DNA from: Candidatus Latescibacterota bacterium
GTDB lineage: Bacteria > Latescibacterota > UBA2968
Reading direction: 5' to 3'
NCBI GenBank assembly: GCA_022821275.1
Contig: JAJEDY010000017.1
Location: forward strand, 1 to 35,261
Length of the DNA: 35,261 nt
Positions 1,085 through 30,797 of the stretch are shown here, piece after piece. The position numbers and the translations under genes were made by a program. Every line of letters starts with the position of its first letter. The first letter of the stretch is position 1. The notes beneath the pieces were generated by a model. The model did no database searches and was not told the origin of the DNA. It saw nothing but the letters and a program-made list of their open reading frames with translations.

Positions 1085-1114
1085 TGAATAAAATGAATTC
1101 GCCACGGATGTCAA
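1085..1114 (-). promoter_or_regulatory. Putative sigma70 promoter for the PhyH gene
   Basis: On the minus strand TTGACA (1114-1109) is followed by TTATTC or TATTCA at a 17 or 18 bp spacing (down to 1085). The PhyH start is about 20 bp further on. The -35 hexamer lies inside the repeated element, which therefore may have brought the promoter with it. Confidence 0.45.
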
Positions 1115-1127
1115 TCAGACACGAAGT

Positions 1128-1259
1128 TGGCAGAGGGTGTGGGGATGGTGTACAACTTCGACAGAAGTTCATCGAACCCATATACGAGATATCCTGCAGG
1201 ATACCCGTAGCCCTCGGTTTGGAAGCCCTCGGGGCCAGTACCACTGGCTCTCACCCCCT
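1128..1259 (-). pseudogene. tRNA-Sec-like element, copy 1, disrupted by a 26-bp insert
   Basis: Same sequence as the intact element at 3111-3216, but a 26-bp palindrome is inserted inside the T loop (1147-1172). That destroys the T arm as a continuous structure. The variable-arm stem is kept (its loop is TGCA here, CGCA in copy 2), as are the acceptor strands and the D arm. It is unlikely to give a functional tRNA. Confidence 0.45.
1147..1172. repeat. 26-bp palindromic insertion, copy A
   Basis: Comparison with repeat copy 2 shows exactly 26 extra bases here, flanked by AT on both sides. The insert forms a hairpin with stem AACTTC/GAAGTT and loop GACA. It matches 22 of 26 bases of the second copy at 1634-1659. 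Confidence 0.7.
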
Positions 1260-1320
1260 GCTCAATAATACGACGATACCATAAAATGGAATGTTTCGGA
1301 TGGGATAGGGGAGACGACAC

Positions 1321-1512
1321 CTTTGACGTAGCCGCCATTTGCCTACCGGAATTCGGACGCTCCCACCTCGCTCGCCAAGGGCGTCAATCGCCTCCTGAAT
1401 CCCCGAGGTAGCCGAATCCCTGATCGAGAAATATTTCAAGGGATGGCCAGCCTCCCAGAATCTCATCTTTGACCGAGCCAAACAGATCGCGTTCGTCGTA
1501 TCGCTGTTGCAT
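1321..1512 (-). pseudogene. N-terminal fragment of a beta-helix (pectate-lyase-like) protein
   Basis: An ATG at 1512 preceded by AAGGA opens a frame beginning MQQRYDERDLFGSVKDEILG. After a frameshift near 1420 the neighbouring frame reads GIQEAIDALGERGGSVRIP followed by VGKWRLR. That is the typical first turn of right-handed beta-helix proteins of the pectate lyase 3 kind, in which a line of alternating hydrophobic residues precedes 'P.G.Y.L'. The fragment stops where the ~200-bp repeat begins, so it is both frameshifted and truncated. Such proteins usually act on polysaccharides, but nothing can be said about this relic's former substrate. Confidence 0.45.
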
Positions 1513-1544
1513 TGCGTTGTCCTTGAAAAGGTGGTCAGTCGGGT

Positions 1545-1764
1545 CCTTCTTTTCGCCATTTGCGTTTGGGCGGCAAGGGGAGAAGCTGTTGCCATTGCGC
1601 TTCGGTGACATTTATTGGATATTGCCGGTGCGTATGAACTGCTGGCGCAGTTGTACCCCGCTCCATCTTTGTCCTTTCCTTTCAGGGTTATATAACCTGA
1701 ATTTGGACAGATGAATATGCTTTTTCAACGCTTTTTTGACTCCCAATACTTTTAAAACAGCTTC
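1545..1764 (-). mobile_element. Remnant of an IS5-family element (5' end only)
   Basis: This stretch aligns with the left part of the complete element at 29004-29931. The terminal inverted repeat (1748-1764, ending CAGCTTC), the leader, and the first ~30 transposase codons (NVTEAQWQQLLPLPPKRKWR, against NVTEAQWQLLIPRLPKRKWR in the intact copy) are recognisable. It then reaches a stop and loses similarity near 1545. A 26-bp palindrome lies in frame just after the start codon. The copy is diverged, so this insertion predates the intact one. Confidence 0.8.
1634..1659 (-). repeat. 26-bp palindromic insertion, copy B
   Basis: On the minus strand the hairpin is AACTGC-GCCA-GCAGTT. Relative to copy A the stem has T-A replaced by G-C at matching positions, a compensatory pair, while the outer bases are conserved. 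It sits inside the first codons of the IS transposase relic and keeps the frame, adding about nine codons. Confidence 0.65.
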
Positions 1765-1779
1765 TAAGGATGTTTTCAC

Positions 1780-2616
1780 ATGCCCAATATAGACTTTCCA
1801 ATCCATAATCAGACACTGGTGCAGAAACTCTATCTGGCACACGCTGACTATTTGCAGGAGTACTGTAGATATGATATAGAAATTACTGGAAGAGCTTTCA
1901 ACCAGAGAGGCAACAATCGCGCATTCTTTGTTCATAAACTCAGTATGAAGAATAGGATCATCCTGATGGGAGATGAAACGCCTGAGCTAATCAGCGAACT
2001 GATTGAATGGTACGATAAATATGATGCAGAAGCTTGCAATATAGAGATCAATCCTTCAAATCTCTATGTATCCGCCCAACAAGAATATCCTCCGAAGTTG
2101 ACTGATTTTCTCATCCAAAGAGGTTTCTTTGCTAGCTCCTTTAGAACGGTATGGGTTTGCGCACCGGAAGTCTCAAAAATGGAAACTCCTCCTGACATCA
2201 CGATTAAGCGATTCGAATCAGACGAAATAGACGCATTTATCGAAGACTTGAATGTCGCTGAAAAAATAGAAGATAAAGAACGTGCAAAGGCCAGAGAAGA
2301 TGAAATACGAAGGGATGAGGGGAGCAACGATTGGATTCACTACATCGCTTATGTAGACAAAATTCCCAGTGCTACAGCCACCCTCTTTATAACTGAAGAT
2401 GTCGGTTATCTTGCTTGGGGATATACGCGACCAGAGGCTCGTAATCAGGGTCTTCACGGGTATCTTATCAATGAAAGAGTAAATGACTCTGCACTACGAG
2501 GATGTTCTTTATCATTTTCCGTCACCAATTTCAATGACCAAAGTTCAATGAATTTACAGAGACTTGGATTTCGGTTAGCATACAACTACATTAGATTTGT
2601 GAAGAAACTTAATTAA
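1780..2616 (+). CDS. GNAT-family N-acetyltransferase
   Basis: This 278-residue protein carries a GNAT acetyl-CoA-binding fold in its C-terminal half. The beta4 strand YLAWGYTRPEARNQGLHGYL (about 208-227) contains the motif A pattern R-N-Q-G-L-H-G, followed by SFSVTNFNDQSSMNLQRLGF, the usual asparagine/'LGF' region. The N-terminal half has no motif I recognise and may be a degenerate second GNAT domain, as in two-domain GNATs. The acceptor is unknown. An AAGGA precedes the ATG and immediately abuts the end of the IS remnant, so the gene may use a promoter within that relic. It converges with the VOC gene, overlapping by four bases. Confidence 0.8.
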   Translation: MPNIDFPIHNQTLVQKLYLAHADYLQEYCRYDIEITGRAFNQRGNNRAFFVHKLSMKNRIILMGDETPELISELIEWYDKYDAEACNIEINPSNLYVSAQQEYPPKLTDFLIQRGFFASSFRTVWVCAPEVSKMETPPDITIKRFESDEIDAFIEDLNVAEKIEDKERAKAREDEIRRDEGSNDWIHYIAYVDKIPSATATLFITEDVGYLAWGYTRPEARNQGLHGYLINERVNDSALRGCSLSFSVTNFNDQSSMNLQRLGFRLAYNYIRFVKKLN

Positions 2617-3076: not shown

Positions 3077-3277
3077 TGAATTCGCCACTGATGTCAAGCA
3101 GACACGAAGTTGGCAGAGGGTGTGGGGATCGAACCCATATACGAGATATCCCGCAGGATACCCGTAGCCCTCGGTTTGGAAGCCCTCGGGGCCAGTACCA
3201 CTGGCTCTCACCCCCTGCTCAATAATACGACGCTATCATAAAATGGAATGTTTCGGATGGGATAGGGAAGACGATAC
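3077..3277 (-). repeat. ~200-bp direct repeat, copy 2 (carries intact tRNA-like element)
   Basis: Second copy of the element at 1094-1320, without the 26-bp insert. It begins three bases after the stop of the GNAT::MFS gene. The high identity, with the tRNA-like core differing by one loop base, points to a recent duplication or to conversion between copies. The ~1.75 kb between the copies holds only accessory and broken genes. Confidence 0.85.
3111..3216 (-). tRNA. tRNA-like element resembling tRNA-Sec (anticodon arm abnormal)
   Basis: Read on the minus strand, AGGGGGTG pairs with CACCCTCT as an 8-bp acceptor stem, followed by G and CCA. A 4-bp T stem TGGG/CCCA with loop TTCGATC stacks directly on it. 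A D arm GCCAG-TGGTA-CTGGC and a long variable arm GGTATCC-TGCG-GGATATC (3162-3145) are clear. An 8+4 bp branch and a long variable arm are features of bacterial tRNA-Sec and of the tRNA-Sec-like allo-tRNAs. The anticodon region GGGCTTCCAAACC resembles the selC loop but has an extra C, and its 3' strand does not pair: CCGAGGG occurs on both sides. It could be a relic or a divergent tRNA. A TATTAT box (3227-3222) lies five bases upstream. Confidence 0.4.
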
Positions 3278-6270: not shown

Positions 6271-7692
6271 TCAGTTCTGAGGATCAGGATGGCTCGCCTG
6301 GGCCAGTTCGCGCAGTACATCGACCGCGAAGAGGACGTCCTCTCTCCGACAGTCGAACTGCCCGACCTGGAAGCGAATGACGAACTGTCCTTCATGGATC
6401 GTCTGCGTCAGGTAGATTCGGCCGTCATCGTTGACCGCGCGGAGCAGGCGTTCGGTGGCGTCGTCGGCGTTTTCACCGTCGGGGGCGTACTGGAACGTGA
6501 AGAGCGAAAGGTGGCAGTCCGTTGTCAGGCGAAAGCCGTCCAGCGATGCGATCGCGGCGGCGGCCTCCTCAGCCCAGGCAATATGGTTCCGGATGCGTTG
6601 TCGGAGGTCTTCGAGACCGTGGGCACGGAGCAGGAACCAGAGCTTGAGGGCGCGGAATCGGCGCCCCAGGGGGATCGTCCATTCGCTGTAATTGGTGATT
6701 TCGGTTTGGCCGAGGGTCTGGAGGTAATCCGGACGGATACCGAGGGTGCGAACCTGTGGTTCCGGGTCCGCGAGAAACTGGATCGAACAGTCGAATTGTG
6801 CACCGAGCCACTTGTGGGGATTGAAGGCGATGCTGTCGGCTTCCTCGACCCCCGCCCACAACTCGCGTAGCTCGGGACAAATCATCGCAGAACCGGCCCA
6901 CGCGGCGTCGATGTGGACGTAGAGATCGTGCTCGCGTGCCACTTCAATGGTCTGGTGTACATGGTCGGATGCGCCAATCGACGTACCTCCAACACAGAGG
7001 ACGATACCGGCCGGGAGGAAACCCGCGGCACGATCTGCGTCAATTGCCCGGCGGAGCGCTTCCGGGTCGAGCGCCCAGGAATCATTGGTCGGGACTTTGA
7101 CCAGATTTCGTTGGCCGATACCGGCGATGTGAATCGCCTTGTCAACCGACGAGTGGGTCTCCGGCGAGGCGTAGATCCGGAGTTGTTTCTCTCCCGCTAT
7201 TCCAGAATCGATGCCTCGCCAGCCAAGTGCGCGCTCGCGCATCGTCAGTACGGCGCAGACATTTGCCGATGTTGCCGTATCCTGGATAACCCCCTGGAAT
7301 CCTTCTGGTAGCCCGAGTGCCTGGCGCATCCAATCGACCATCCGGGTCTCGATTTCCGTAGCTGCGGGTGAGGTCTGCCAGAGCATGCACTGGGCCGCCA
7401 TGACCGCCGTCAAATTCTCGGCGATCATCGAAACCGGCGCAGCGTTGGCGCTGAAGTACGCAAAAAAGCGCCGGTGTTGCCAATGCGTCATGCCGTCGGG
7501 CACGATGCGCTCGAAGTCGGCGAAGATCGTCTCCATGCTTACCGGCTCTTCCGGTGGCGATAGAGGCAGCATCGCTGCGATCTCGCCCGGTGCGGTCTGC
7601 GCCCGAACGGGTCGGTCTTCGAGCGTGGCCAGGTATTCGGCGCCCCACCGTGCGGCTCGTTCAGCCCATTGAAGGTAGTCTTCTCGTTTCAA
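6271..7692 (-). CDS. Group II pyridoxal-phosphate-dependent decarboxylase
   Basis: This 473-residue protein has the length and motifs of the aromatic-L-amino-acid/tyrosine/glutamate decarboxylase family. QDTATSANV (137-145) binds the cofactor phosphate, ETHSSVDKA (178-186) contains the ring-stacking His180, HIDAAWAGS (260-268) carries the Asp262 that contacts the pyridine nitrogen, and NPHKW carries Lys294, the Schiff-base lysine. It would convert an amino acid to an amine and CO2 in the cytoplasm. The N-terminal sequence is most like aromatic-acid decarboxylases, but the substrate cannot be fixed. The start is a TTG at 7692 without a strong ribosome site. It lies 33 bases after the PhyH gene and 63 before the sulfatase. 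Confidence 0.9.
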   Translation of the reverse strand: MKREDYLQWAERAARWGAEYLATLEDRPVRAQTAPGEIAAMLPLSPPEEPVSMETIFADFERIVPDGMTHWQHRRFFAYFSANAAPVSMIAENLTAVMAAQCMLWQTSPAATEIETRMVDWMRQALGLPEGFQGVIQDTATSANVCAVLTMRERALGWRGIDSGIAGEKQLRIYASPETHSSVDKAIHIAGIGQRNLVKVPTNDSWALDPEALRRAIDADRAAGFLPAGIVLCVGGTSIGASDHVHQTIEVAREHDLYVHIDAAWAGSAMICPELRELWAGVEEADSIAFNPHKWLGAQFDCSIQFLADPEPQVRTLGIRPDYLQTLGQTEITNYSEWTIPLGRRFRALKLWFLLRAHGLEDLRQRIRNHIAWAEEAAAAIASLDGFRLTTDCHLSLFTFQYAPDGENADDATERLLRAVNDDGRIYLTQTIHEGQFVIRFQVGQFDCRREDVLFAVDVLRELAQASHPDPQN

Positions 7693-28377: not shown

Positions 28378-29003
28378 GCAAAGGAGACGGTCTTTATGTC
28401 GGCTTTAAAAAAAACCAATATCGTTTTTATTCTCGCCGATGACATGGCTGTTTGGGCGGCGGGTTGTTATGGCAATGCAGAAATTCGAACGCCAAACCTC
28501 GACCGTATGGCGGCAACAGGCGTGCGGTTTGAGAATTTCTTTGTGACGATTCCGGTGTGTTCGGCCAGCCGGGCTTCTTTTTTTACCGGGCGGATTCCGT
28601 CTCAGCACGGCGTTCACGATTTTATTGGGGGTCAAGTCAATTTTGGGCCTGCAGGACAGAGTTTTCTCGACGACGAAGTTTGTTATACAAATGTTTTGGC
28701 TGACAATGGGTGGACATGTGGCCTGTCGGGCAAATGGCATTTGGGCAATTCGTCTCTTCCGCAATGTGGATTTTCTCACTGGTTTGCGCATCCGGGTGGG
28801 GCGGGTGATTATAATGATCAGATAATGATACGCGATGGTGTGACAGGGGTTGTGCCCGGTTATGTGACGCATGTGATTACGGATGATGCGCTTGATTATA
28901 TCGATGCTCATGCAGAAGATGAAAACCCATTTTATCTGAGTGTTCATTATACTGCGCCACACGCGCCGTGGATCGGTCATCCTCAGGATATTGTGGATTC
29001 TTA

Positions 29004-29931
29004 GAAGTTGTTTTAAAAATGCTTTGCTTAAGCGATTCTGTTGAGTAAGAGGTAAATCATAACAATGTGAATAAATGCTTCACTGTTGTCAGTCAAGTCC
29101 TCATAATCCTTTGATAGACGGCGAAAATTTAATAACCAGGCAAAGGTGCGCTCAACGACCCAACGGCGCTTGGCGACCTGGAATCCCTCACCTTTAGGCT
29201 TAACAACCTCAAGATCAATTTTATACGTGCGCTTCCTATCAGCGACCCATTCCTTGAGGTCATCGCCGCGATAGCCGCCATCAACCCACAGCTTGCGTAA
29301 GCGTGTTGTTCCTTGCTCAAAATACTGATTCAGCAGATGCTTGAGGCCGTCACGATCTTGGAGATTGGCAGGTGAGACAAAGGCGTTGATCACCAGGCCG
29401 AGGGTATCGACAAGCAGGTGGCGTTTGCGTCCATTGACATTTTTGCCCGCATCGTAACCCTTTGATTCTCCTTGTGTTGCACTCTTGACACTTTGACTAT
29501 CAATGCAGCCTGCCGATGCAGTAGCTTTGCGTCCTTGCCGTTTTCTCTCTTTTCGTGAAAGTGCCTGTTGCACACGCTCAAAGACGCCTTGTTCGCGCCA
29601 GTTGTTGAAATAGCCATACACGGTTTGCCAGCAGCCAAAGGTATGAGGCAGCATGCGCCATTGGCAGCCGGTCTTCGTCAGATACAGGATGCCATCAAAC
29701 ACGTTCCGCAAATTGACAGGGGGACGTCCACGCCTGCCTTTTCGCCATTTGCGCTTGGGCAGGCGTGGGATCAGCAGTTGCCATTGCGCTTCGGTGACAT
29801 TTGTCGGATATTGTCTTGGCGTATTCATCGCATGTCCTTTCTTTTTAAGGTTTTTGGATACCCTAAATTTGGACTGATGAATACGCTTTTTCAACTCTTT
29901 TCTCACCTCATTATATTTTTAAAACAGCTTC
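29004..29931 (-). mobile_element. Complete IS5-family insertion sequence (928 bp)
   Basis: Terminal inverted repeats of 17 bp with one mismatch are GAAGTTGTTTTAAAAAT (29004-29020) and, on the other strand, GAAGCTGTTTTAAAAAT (29931-29915). A TTA target duplication flanks it (29001-29003 and 29932-29934). A T-N-A duplication is known for the ISL2 group of IS5. It holds one transposase gene and interrupts the sulfatase. A diverged partial copy lies at 1545-1764. Confidence 0.92.
29028..29828 (-). CDS. IS5-family DDE transposase
   Basis: This 266-residue transposase has catalytic residues Asp110 (CIDSQSVK), Asp183 (WVDGGYRGD) and Glu226 (VVERTFAWL), spaced as in IS5 enzymes. GYDAGKNVNGRKRHLLVDT (125-142 region) is the family signature before the first conserved block. 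The N-terminal helix-turn-helix-like part starts NVTEAQWQLLIPRLPKRKWR. The start at 29828 follows AAGGACA at a good spacing. The frame is open further to 29906, but that part lies in the element's leader. It appears intact and potentially active. Confidence 0.95.
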   Translation of the reverse strand: MNTPRQYPTNVTEAQWQLLIPRLPKRKWRKGRRGRPPVNLRNVFDGILYLTKTGCQWRMLPHTFGCWQTVYGYFNNWREQGVFERVQQALSRKERKRQGRKATASAGCIDSQSVKSATQGESKGYDAGKNVNGRKRHLLVDTLGLVINAFVSPANLQDRDGLKHLLNQYFEQGTTRLRKLWVDGGYRGDDLKEWVADRKRTYKIDLEVVKPKGEGFQVAKRRWVVERTFAWLLNFRRLSKDYEDLTDNSEAFIHIVMIYLLLNRIA

Positions 29932-30797
29932 TTATGATGACTGTGCTTTTGAGACGTGCCCACAGGAACCCCTCCATCCGTGGGCAAAGGTGCCTGAGGA
30001 TGATGCAGACCTGCCAGCCCGGTCAATGAGAGGGCTGAGCAATAACCTGGGGCAGCGCGAAAGTTTGAAGGGATATTTTGCGGCGGTAACCGCGATGGAT
30101 CTGGATGTGGGGCGGATTTTGGACAAGCTGGAAGAAAAGGGTTTGCGCGAAAATACGCTTGTGGTGTTTACCTCTGACAATGGGTATTCGTGCGGACAAC
30201 ATGGTTTTTGGGGTAAAGGCAATGGAACTGATCCGGTGAATATGTATGAGAGTTCGATTAAGGTGCCTTTCCTGGCTACGCACCCGGGTGTGATTCCAGA
30301 AGGCACGGTGCAATCGGCGATGGCTTCGGCTTATGATGTTTTGCCTACGCTTTTGGACTATGTTGATCTTCCGCTTCCCGATGCGAATTTGCCAGGACAA
30401 TCGTTCCTTTCCGTGTTGAAAAATGAACGTGCAAAGGGTCGTGACAGTGTTGTCATTTACGATGAGTATGGTTATTGCAGGATGATTCGGACCGCCAGGT
30501 GGAAATACATCCATCGTTATCCAGATGGACCAAATGAGCTTTACGATGTTGTGAATGACCCCGATGATCGCAACAATTTAATTGATGACTCGGCACAGGC
30601 TGATCGCGTGAAAGATCTCAAAGAAGAGATGGAAACGTGGTTTAAGAAATACGTGGTTCCAGATATCGATGGCCGGATATACAATGTGACAGGTTCTGGC
30701 CAGTTGCGGCCTGTGGGTAGAAAATGGGAAGATGGGAAAGAACCTTTTGCAGGGGCTGTCAGGTAGCGACCATCAATAATCAGGATACCAGTGAGAA

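Follow-up and report, generated by a model that had tools for sequence, protein, structure and literature searches.

Small dispersed repeats (SDR4, SDR5, SDR6 and others) were reportedly described in Nostoc and its relatives by Elhai et al. in 2008. They are said to be 21–27 nt long, to share a common hairpin with compensatory changes, to lie in short tandem repeats and mini-transposons, to nest within their own copies and to be confined to one clade. To our knowledge, no enzyme is known for them. Rickettsia palindromic elements, another kind of small palindromic repeat, are roughly 100–150 bp in length. The SDRs are counted among short repeats of open origin (PMC3116915). Here, we describe an insert in a Latescibacterota genome which, judged from its sequence and that of its relatives, is probably a non-coding, ultra-short mobile hairpin (a '27-mer hairpin'), dispersed and precisely inserted within one genus.

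Filled and empty sites

The window, by which we mean the whole stretch of DNA analysed, comprises 35,261 nt of contig JAJEDY010000017.1 from a Candidatus Latescibacterota bacterium. It contains the following features.

1094–1320, unstranded: repeat copy 1 (filled), a tRNA-Sec-like sequence on the minus strand with its T-loop interrupted by the element
1144–1172, plus strand: element copy 1, net insert 26 bp, from alignment with the empty paralogue at 3077–3277
1154–1169, plus strand: hairpin of copy 1, with stem AACTTC (1154–1159), loop GACA (1160–1163) and stem GAAGTT (1164–1169), from sequence and family covariation
1549–1772, minus strand: degraded IS5-type remnant hosting copy 2, 71% identical over 228 positions to 29738–29939
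1637–1663, minus strand: element copy 2 (GAGCGGGGTACAACTGCGCCAGCAGTT), within the degraded IS5-type element, net 27 bp plus an A-to-C change relative to the empty relative
3077–3277, unstranded: repeat copy 2 (empty), with an uninterrupted tRNA-Sec-like sequence at 3114–3217 on the minus strand (Rfam RF01852, alignment)
29028–29939, minus strand: related IS5-type element with a DUF4096 and DDE_Tnp_1 transposase (Pfam PF13340, PF01609), the 5′ part of which is the empty site for copy 2

An initial annotation of this DNA held that two paralogous repeats differ by exactly one palindromic insert of 26 bp at 1147–1172. Alignment of 1094–1320 with 3077–3277 indeed yields exactly 26 extra bases, the filled copy reading GGGGAT[GGTGTACAACTTCGACAGAAGTTCAT]CGAACC and the empty copy GGGGATCGAACC. 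The size of the insert stands, and its placement can be refined, as 1144–1169 and 1145–1170 are possible besides 1147–1172. Comparison with other sites favours 1144–1169, in which case the next base (1170) would have changed to C. The minimum free energy structure of the 26-mer is the same 6-bp hairpin as that listed above, and the family covariance model (R1) matches copy 1 at C44:1142-1173 (E 1.8e-6). Empty relatives of this site are also present in genomes G001, G003, G004, G005 and G006.

The host repeat resembles a tRNA-Sec gene. Its empty copy (3114–3217, minus strand) scores 30.4 bits against RF01852, under the gathering score of 47, and an ARAGORN search of the host repeat returned no standard tRNA. 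Similar sequences, namely both window copies (3114–3217 and 1094–1320, minus strand) and those at 1500–1853 (minus strand) of locus L272, score a sub-threshold 29–35 bits and give no ARAGORN hit. The L272 region, from genome G006, holds three such genes in tandem. One tRNA-Sec-like gene folds as a complete cloverleaf whose variable arm is long; a 4-nt loop closes its anticodon arm, so this predicted RNA may not decode.

A second copy had been placed at 1634–1659, 22/26 identical to the insert, with two of the four differences forming a T-A/G-C exchange in the stem. This description holds: the copy, on the minus strand and some 490 bp from the first, is diverged, the window pair exchanges AACT[T/G]C / G[A/C]AGTT, and the other two differences lie outside the stem, one at a 5′ flank position and one in the loop. 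The model matches copy 2 at 1633–1664 (E 1.1e-6). Its host, too, has an empty relative in the same window, at 29.8 kb; the filled sequence is ...GATG[GAGCGGGGTACAACTGCGCCAGCAGTT]CATACGC vs ...GATG-AATACGC in the IS5-type relative, where the empty site is GCGATGAATACGCC. That relative apparently splits a sulfatase gene, with the N-terminal part at 28396–29001, the transposase at 29028–29906 on the opposite strand and the C-terminal part at 29990–30763.

Altogether, seven places yield empty/filled pairs, and the window holds two of these. The net gain is 27 bp throughout, save for 26 bp at the site first reported. Among the tandem tRNA-Sec-like genes of G006 (L272), one reads GGG[GAACGGTGTACAACTTCGACAGAAGTT]CATCGAACCC and two read GGG-AATCGAACCC. 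A repeat of G008 gives the pair GGC[27]CAAAAATG vs GGC-AAAAAATG (L041 vs L240 and L097). Further pairs come from L232 vs L224, from L184 and L209 vs L236, and from recombinase paralogues in L238. The loops of GTAG-type REP palindromes measure 3 nt when uninterrupted and 30 nt when interrupted, again a net 27. No target duplication is seen in the empty/filled pairs. Deletion can be rejected in favour of insertion, because independent sites differ by the same 27-mer amid unrelated flanks.

These comparisons yield an insertion rule. Directly 3′ of the stem, filled sites have a C in place of what is mostly an A in the empty site; the replaced base is G at the site first reported and C in one relative of the G008 repeat, and the L238 pair is ambiguous. 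An A precedes the element in only 4% of the 82 copies whose 5′ part is complete; after the C, position +2 is A in 99% of them and position +3 either A or T in 91%. As read from these sites, the target preference is B|AAW, yielding B[element]CAW. Either a 28-nt element ends in C and the target loses one base, or insertion changes a base of the target to C. We found no earlier description of this insertion rule.

Distribution, structure and targets of the family

Within the window, a search allowing three mismatches returns 3 matches where 1.97 are expected, although two exact matches stand out. Since loose matches are near chance, the window is by itself insufficient to establish a family, and it is the genome counts that settle the point. 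A genome-wide search with the consensus of the initial annotation gives 9 exact matches, vs 0 with a reversed control. We compared 60 genomes, 11 from the window's genus and 49 from its family, order, class and phylum. Each of the former carries 5–120 exact matches; the 49 from other genera have none. With a covariance model trained on 37 diverse copies, the count rises to 29 in the window's own genome (G000) and to 35, 35, 36, 43, 48, 59, 70, 70, 110 and at least 120 in the other ten, for a total of at least 650 over the genus. The same model finds only four marginal matches (E 0.07–0.1) in the 49 genomes of other genera. The highest counts belong to G007 (110) and G008 (at least 120), both single-contig genomes; the G008 count overstates independent insertions, as many copies there travel within a larger repeat. 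This larger repeat (CCTACTTTTTTT..AAAAAAAGTAGGC..AAAAATGCCGCTC...) is present in dozens of copies in G008 (OY282377.1; e.g. L041, L240); the hairpin occurs in some of these and is lacking in others.

In an exact scan of GTDB contigs, multi-copy records among the matches listed are mainly labelled 'uncultured Latescibacteria bacterium' (OY282377.1, OX638329.1). Single matches in unrelated phyla, again among those listed, have no flanking consensus and look like chance. One listed multi-match assembly, JAPPIE01, is labelled Gemmatimonadota. One of its contigs shares its match position with a contig of G010, and the label is probably wrong.

The family consensus is GARCGGK-GTAC-AACTGC-NNNA-GCAGTT-CA. 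An alignment of 144 copies gives GARCGGK-GTAC-AACT[G/T/A]C-NNNA-G[C/A/T]AGTT-CA[T/A]. In a longer form the ends are unchanged, the stem has 8 bp and the unit is about 8 bp longer (AACTGGCC-GCCTCTCA-GGCCAGTT); further paired variants are AACTGGTC/GACCAGTT, AACGAGCC/GGCTCGTT and AACGGG/CCCGTT. For GTAC, 152 of 199 adjoining hairpins are then followed by CA, compared with 0–7 for 12 control tetranucleotides. Of 122 left ends in the loci sampled, 119 form complete hairpins, and these loci contain no extended version that encloses a gene, as the autonomous transposon behind a MITE would.

The stem is kept paired. When copies were matched on the outer stem only (GTACAACT and AGTT required), the inner two pairs were complementary in 142/144. 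At one position the pair is G-C in 122 copies, T-A in 10 and A-T in 10. Over 37 distinct copies the covariation score is 0.198, vs 0.039 in shuffles (0/500 reaching the observed value), with 100% of cells paired, each cell being a sequence rather than an event. As for events, some ten separate loci carry the T-A type, and several further events come from the long-form variants. The A-T type is found mainly in one gene family and probably represents a single event, copied along with a recombinase gene. The suggestion that the insert is a mobile hairpin selected for structure is supported from three sides: copy number genome-wide and in relatives and retained pairing, the two checks that the initial annotation had named, and the additional filled/empty pairs.

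Certain targets recur. The element is found in the loops of GTAG-type REP palindromes of the form GGGCGGGTTT-N-AAACCCGCCC (15 cases); in tandem octamer arrays of the GAATCAACG/GAATAGACG type, at constant phase (30 cases); in terminator-like stems (L009, L047, L214); in the T-loops of tRNA-Sec-like genes; and in the loop of its own long form (L221, L234). Arrays of 8-bp units (GAATCAAC, GAATAGAC), which serve as insertion targets, are seen genus-wide at many loci (e.g. L223, L236). Strong flanking stems accompany 18 of 122 copies with unrelated flanks, vs 2.8 expected and a maximum of 7 in 200 permutations, a signal of loop preference that comes mostly from one target family, the GTAG REP loops.

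By a crude count of open reading frames, 14 of 110 copies (~13%) lie inside ORFs of at least 150 aa, vs 88% ORF coverage of the same loci, and orientation relative to genes is not consistent. The majority are probably neutral passengers between genes, with a few retained in genes. One such gene encodes a tyrosine recombinase (Pfam PF00589, 107 bits) that carries the element in frame, its 27 bp supplying nine codons after the catalytic region: filled ELSG-RAGYNYASSS-TVRHELD vs empty ELSG-E-TVRHELD. With the A-T pair of this copy, TGC (Cys) of the family consensus has become TAC (Tyr); on the partner side AGC has become AGT, a silent change by which pairing is re-established. Recombinase genes, of which some have the in-frame copy and others lack it, occur at L183 (8092–8685), L229 and L238 (minus-strand matches at 6397 and 9481). 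We considered this recombinase as the mobiliser and rejected it; the AACTAC variant is not seen in G000, and gene duplication better explains the copies.

Two other sites are common to several species: the start of an FtsE-like gene (L034, L204, L218, L217) and the leader of a CtpA-like gene (L243, L038, L180, L208), both genes being named from translated sequence. The loop of these copies mostly reads TGATG and so contains an ATG, and in L217 (FtsE-like) the stem is kept via a G-U pair. The conservation of these copies looks like host use.

Mechanism and candidate enzymes

The sequences show a dispersed family with a fixed unit, in which GARCGGK and GTAC precede a 6-bp hairpin (net 27 bp), and a sister form with an 8-bp stem. 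The stem is kept paired while its sequence drifts. Insertion favours B|AAW and leaves B[element]CAW, with strong recurrence in the loops of other hairpins and in AA-containing tandem arrays. The proposed pathway goes further. The folded single strand, either ssDNA at replication forks or RNA, would be recognised by an enzyme supplied in trans and joined to the target. Two observations suggest single-stranded substrates: hairpin loops are preferred as targets, and the stem is under selection for pairing. By inference, the joining of such a folded strand into AA-containing, often looped, targets by a trans-supplied enzyme is the most likely route. We propose more tentatively, as one possibility, that the mechanism is an undescribed one, in which a folded strand of 27/28 nt enters AA sites, preferably in loops of other folded sequences (REPs, terminators, tRNA T-loops), with one base replaced and without RAYT, reverse transcriptase or IS110 transposase.

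Searches for these enzymes cover the 11 genomes of the genus. RAYT-type Y1 transposases (PF01797) are found in 6, reverse transcriptase (PF00078) in only 4, G000 not among them, and IS110 transposase (PF01548) in only 3. All three are missing from the draft genomes G003 and G004. Since every one of these families is lacking in some genomes that carry copies, none of them provides a mobiliser common to all 11.

Among the alternatives, RNA-mediated copying fares best, though we consider it unlikely. Here, a short structured RNA would be retro-inserted by reverse transcriptase, as proposed for other micro-elements. Selection on pairing, the copy-and-paste pattern and the replacement of one target base would all be consistent with this; the scarcity of PF00078 in the genus (4/11 genomes, G000 lacking it) is not, and exceptions of the G.U type occur in both orientations, such that no RNA strand can be named.

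It is less probable still, and in our estimation quite improbable, that the element belongs to a REP/REPIN family moved by RAYT (a Y1 HUH transposase), with GTAC replacing the usual GTRG tetranucleotide. A tetranucleotide does adjoin the hairpin, copies are intergenic, 6/11 genomes have a RAYT-like gene, and the RAYT of G000 is closely followed by a long-form copy. However, PF01797 has no match in G003, G004, G007 (110 copies), G008 (at least 120) or G010, and most copies are single rather than inverted doublets. The absence of PF01797 from 5/11 genomes, G007 and G008 included, leads us to reject RAYT as the mobiliser. The reading frame of the RAYT-like Y1 transposase gene of G000 (L031, 1117–1725, plus strand) contains GTAGGCGCGGGTTTCAAACCCGCGCCTAC, a REP palindrome of the GTAG type, and the long-form GTAC hairpin just downstream is itself inside another palindrome. 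The RAYT of this genus therefore goes with a GTAG-type palindrome, different from the GTAC element, which is a guest of GTAG REPs rather than a product of them.

Very improbable, finally, is a hairpin that stays in place and acts in regulation or RNA processing (as an operator, part of a terminator or a 5′-UTR element), having arisen repeatedly or been spread by larger duplications without mobility of its own. The two sites conserved across species at FtsE-like and CtpA-like starts, mostly with ATG in the loop, and the intergenic position of the majority of copies would suit it. Against it, flanks are unrelated at most sites, empty/filled pairs differ by the 27-mer alone, orientation to genes is inconsistent, and a coding sequence as well as other mobile repeats have received copies.

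Comparison with known systems

The 27-mer hairpin is about as small as mobile DNA can be, and thus marks a lower size limit. It also makes for an unusually clean case: the gain is fixed at 27 bp, empty sites are exact, targets recur, the stem covaries and the clade offers 11 genomes. Each of the three usual candidate enzymes is missing from some of those genomes. Insertions are found at consequential places: tRNA-like T-loops, terminator loops, gene starts and the reading frame of a recombinase. Together, the clean case and the places of insertion render both mechanism and host use testable.

Several described systems bear comparison. Mitochondrial GC clusters and hairpin elements of fungi and sponges (PMC4478555, PMC2800124) are likewise very short mobile hairpins whose mobiliser is unknown. 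One of these, GC42, likewise has a short target motif, although the motif is AG and the element organellar, and the likeness is one of description (PMC4478555). The initial annotation had drawn parallels to Rickettsia palindromic elements and to REPs. The first parallel is strengthened by the copy that lies in frame inside a protein gene, that of the tyrosine recombinase; compared by description, the present element differs in being 27 bp long and mostly intergenic. The second holds for shape, in that REPs and REPINs (PMC3116915) are also short intergenic hairpins adjoining a conserved tetranucleotide, with many copies per genome. It does not extend to RAYT, which is missing from 5/11 genomes, including both single-contig genomes with the most copies. 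The tetranucleotide here is GTAC rather than GTRG, most copies are by inspection single rather than inverted doublets, and the element is abundant where RAYT is missing. With no constant RAYT, no GTRG and no doublets, the element is not a REP.

The closest known kind, likened by description, would be the SDRs of Nostoc. Shared features include a unit of ~27 nt, dispersed copies (29 to at least 120 per genome), a hairpin with compensatory changes, precise presence or absence at related sites, location in tandem repeats and mini-transposons, nesting in its own copies (L221, L234) and restriction to a clade. The Latescibacterota element differs from the SDRs in phylum and probably in sequence, in its insertion at B|AAW with one base replaced, in the 8-nt unit of its tandem arrays, and in its use of tRNA-Sec-like T-loops and GTAG-REP loops as targets. 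By this analogy, it would represent a new family of micro-elements with an insertion rule of its own.
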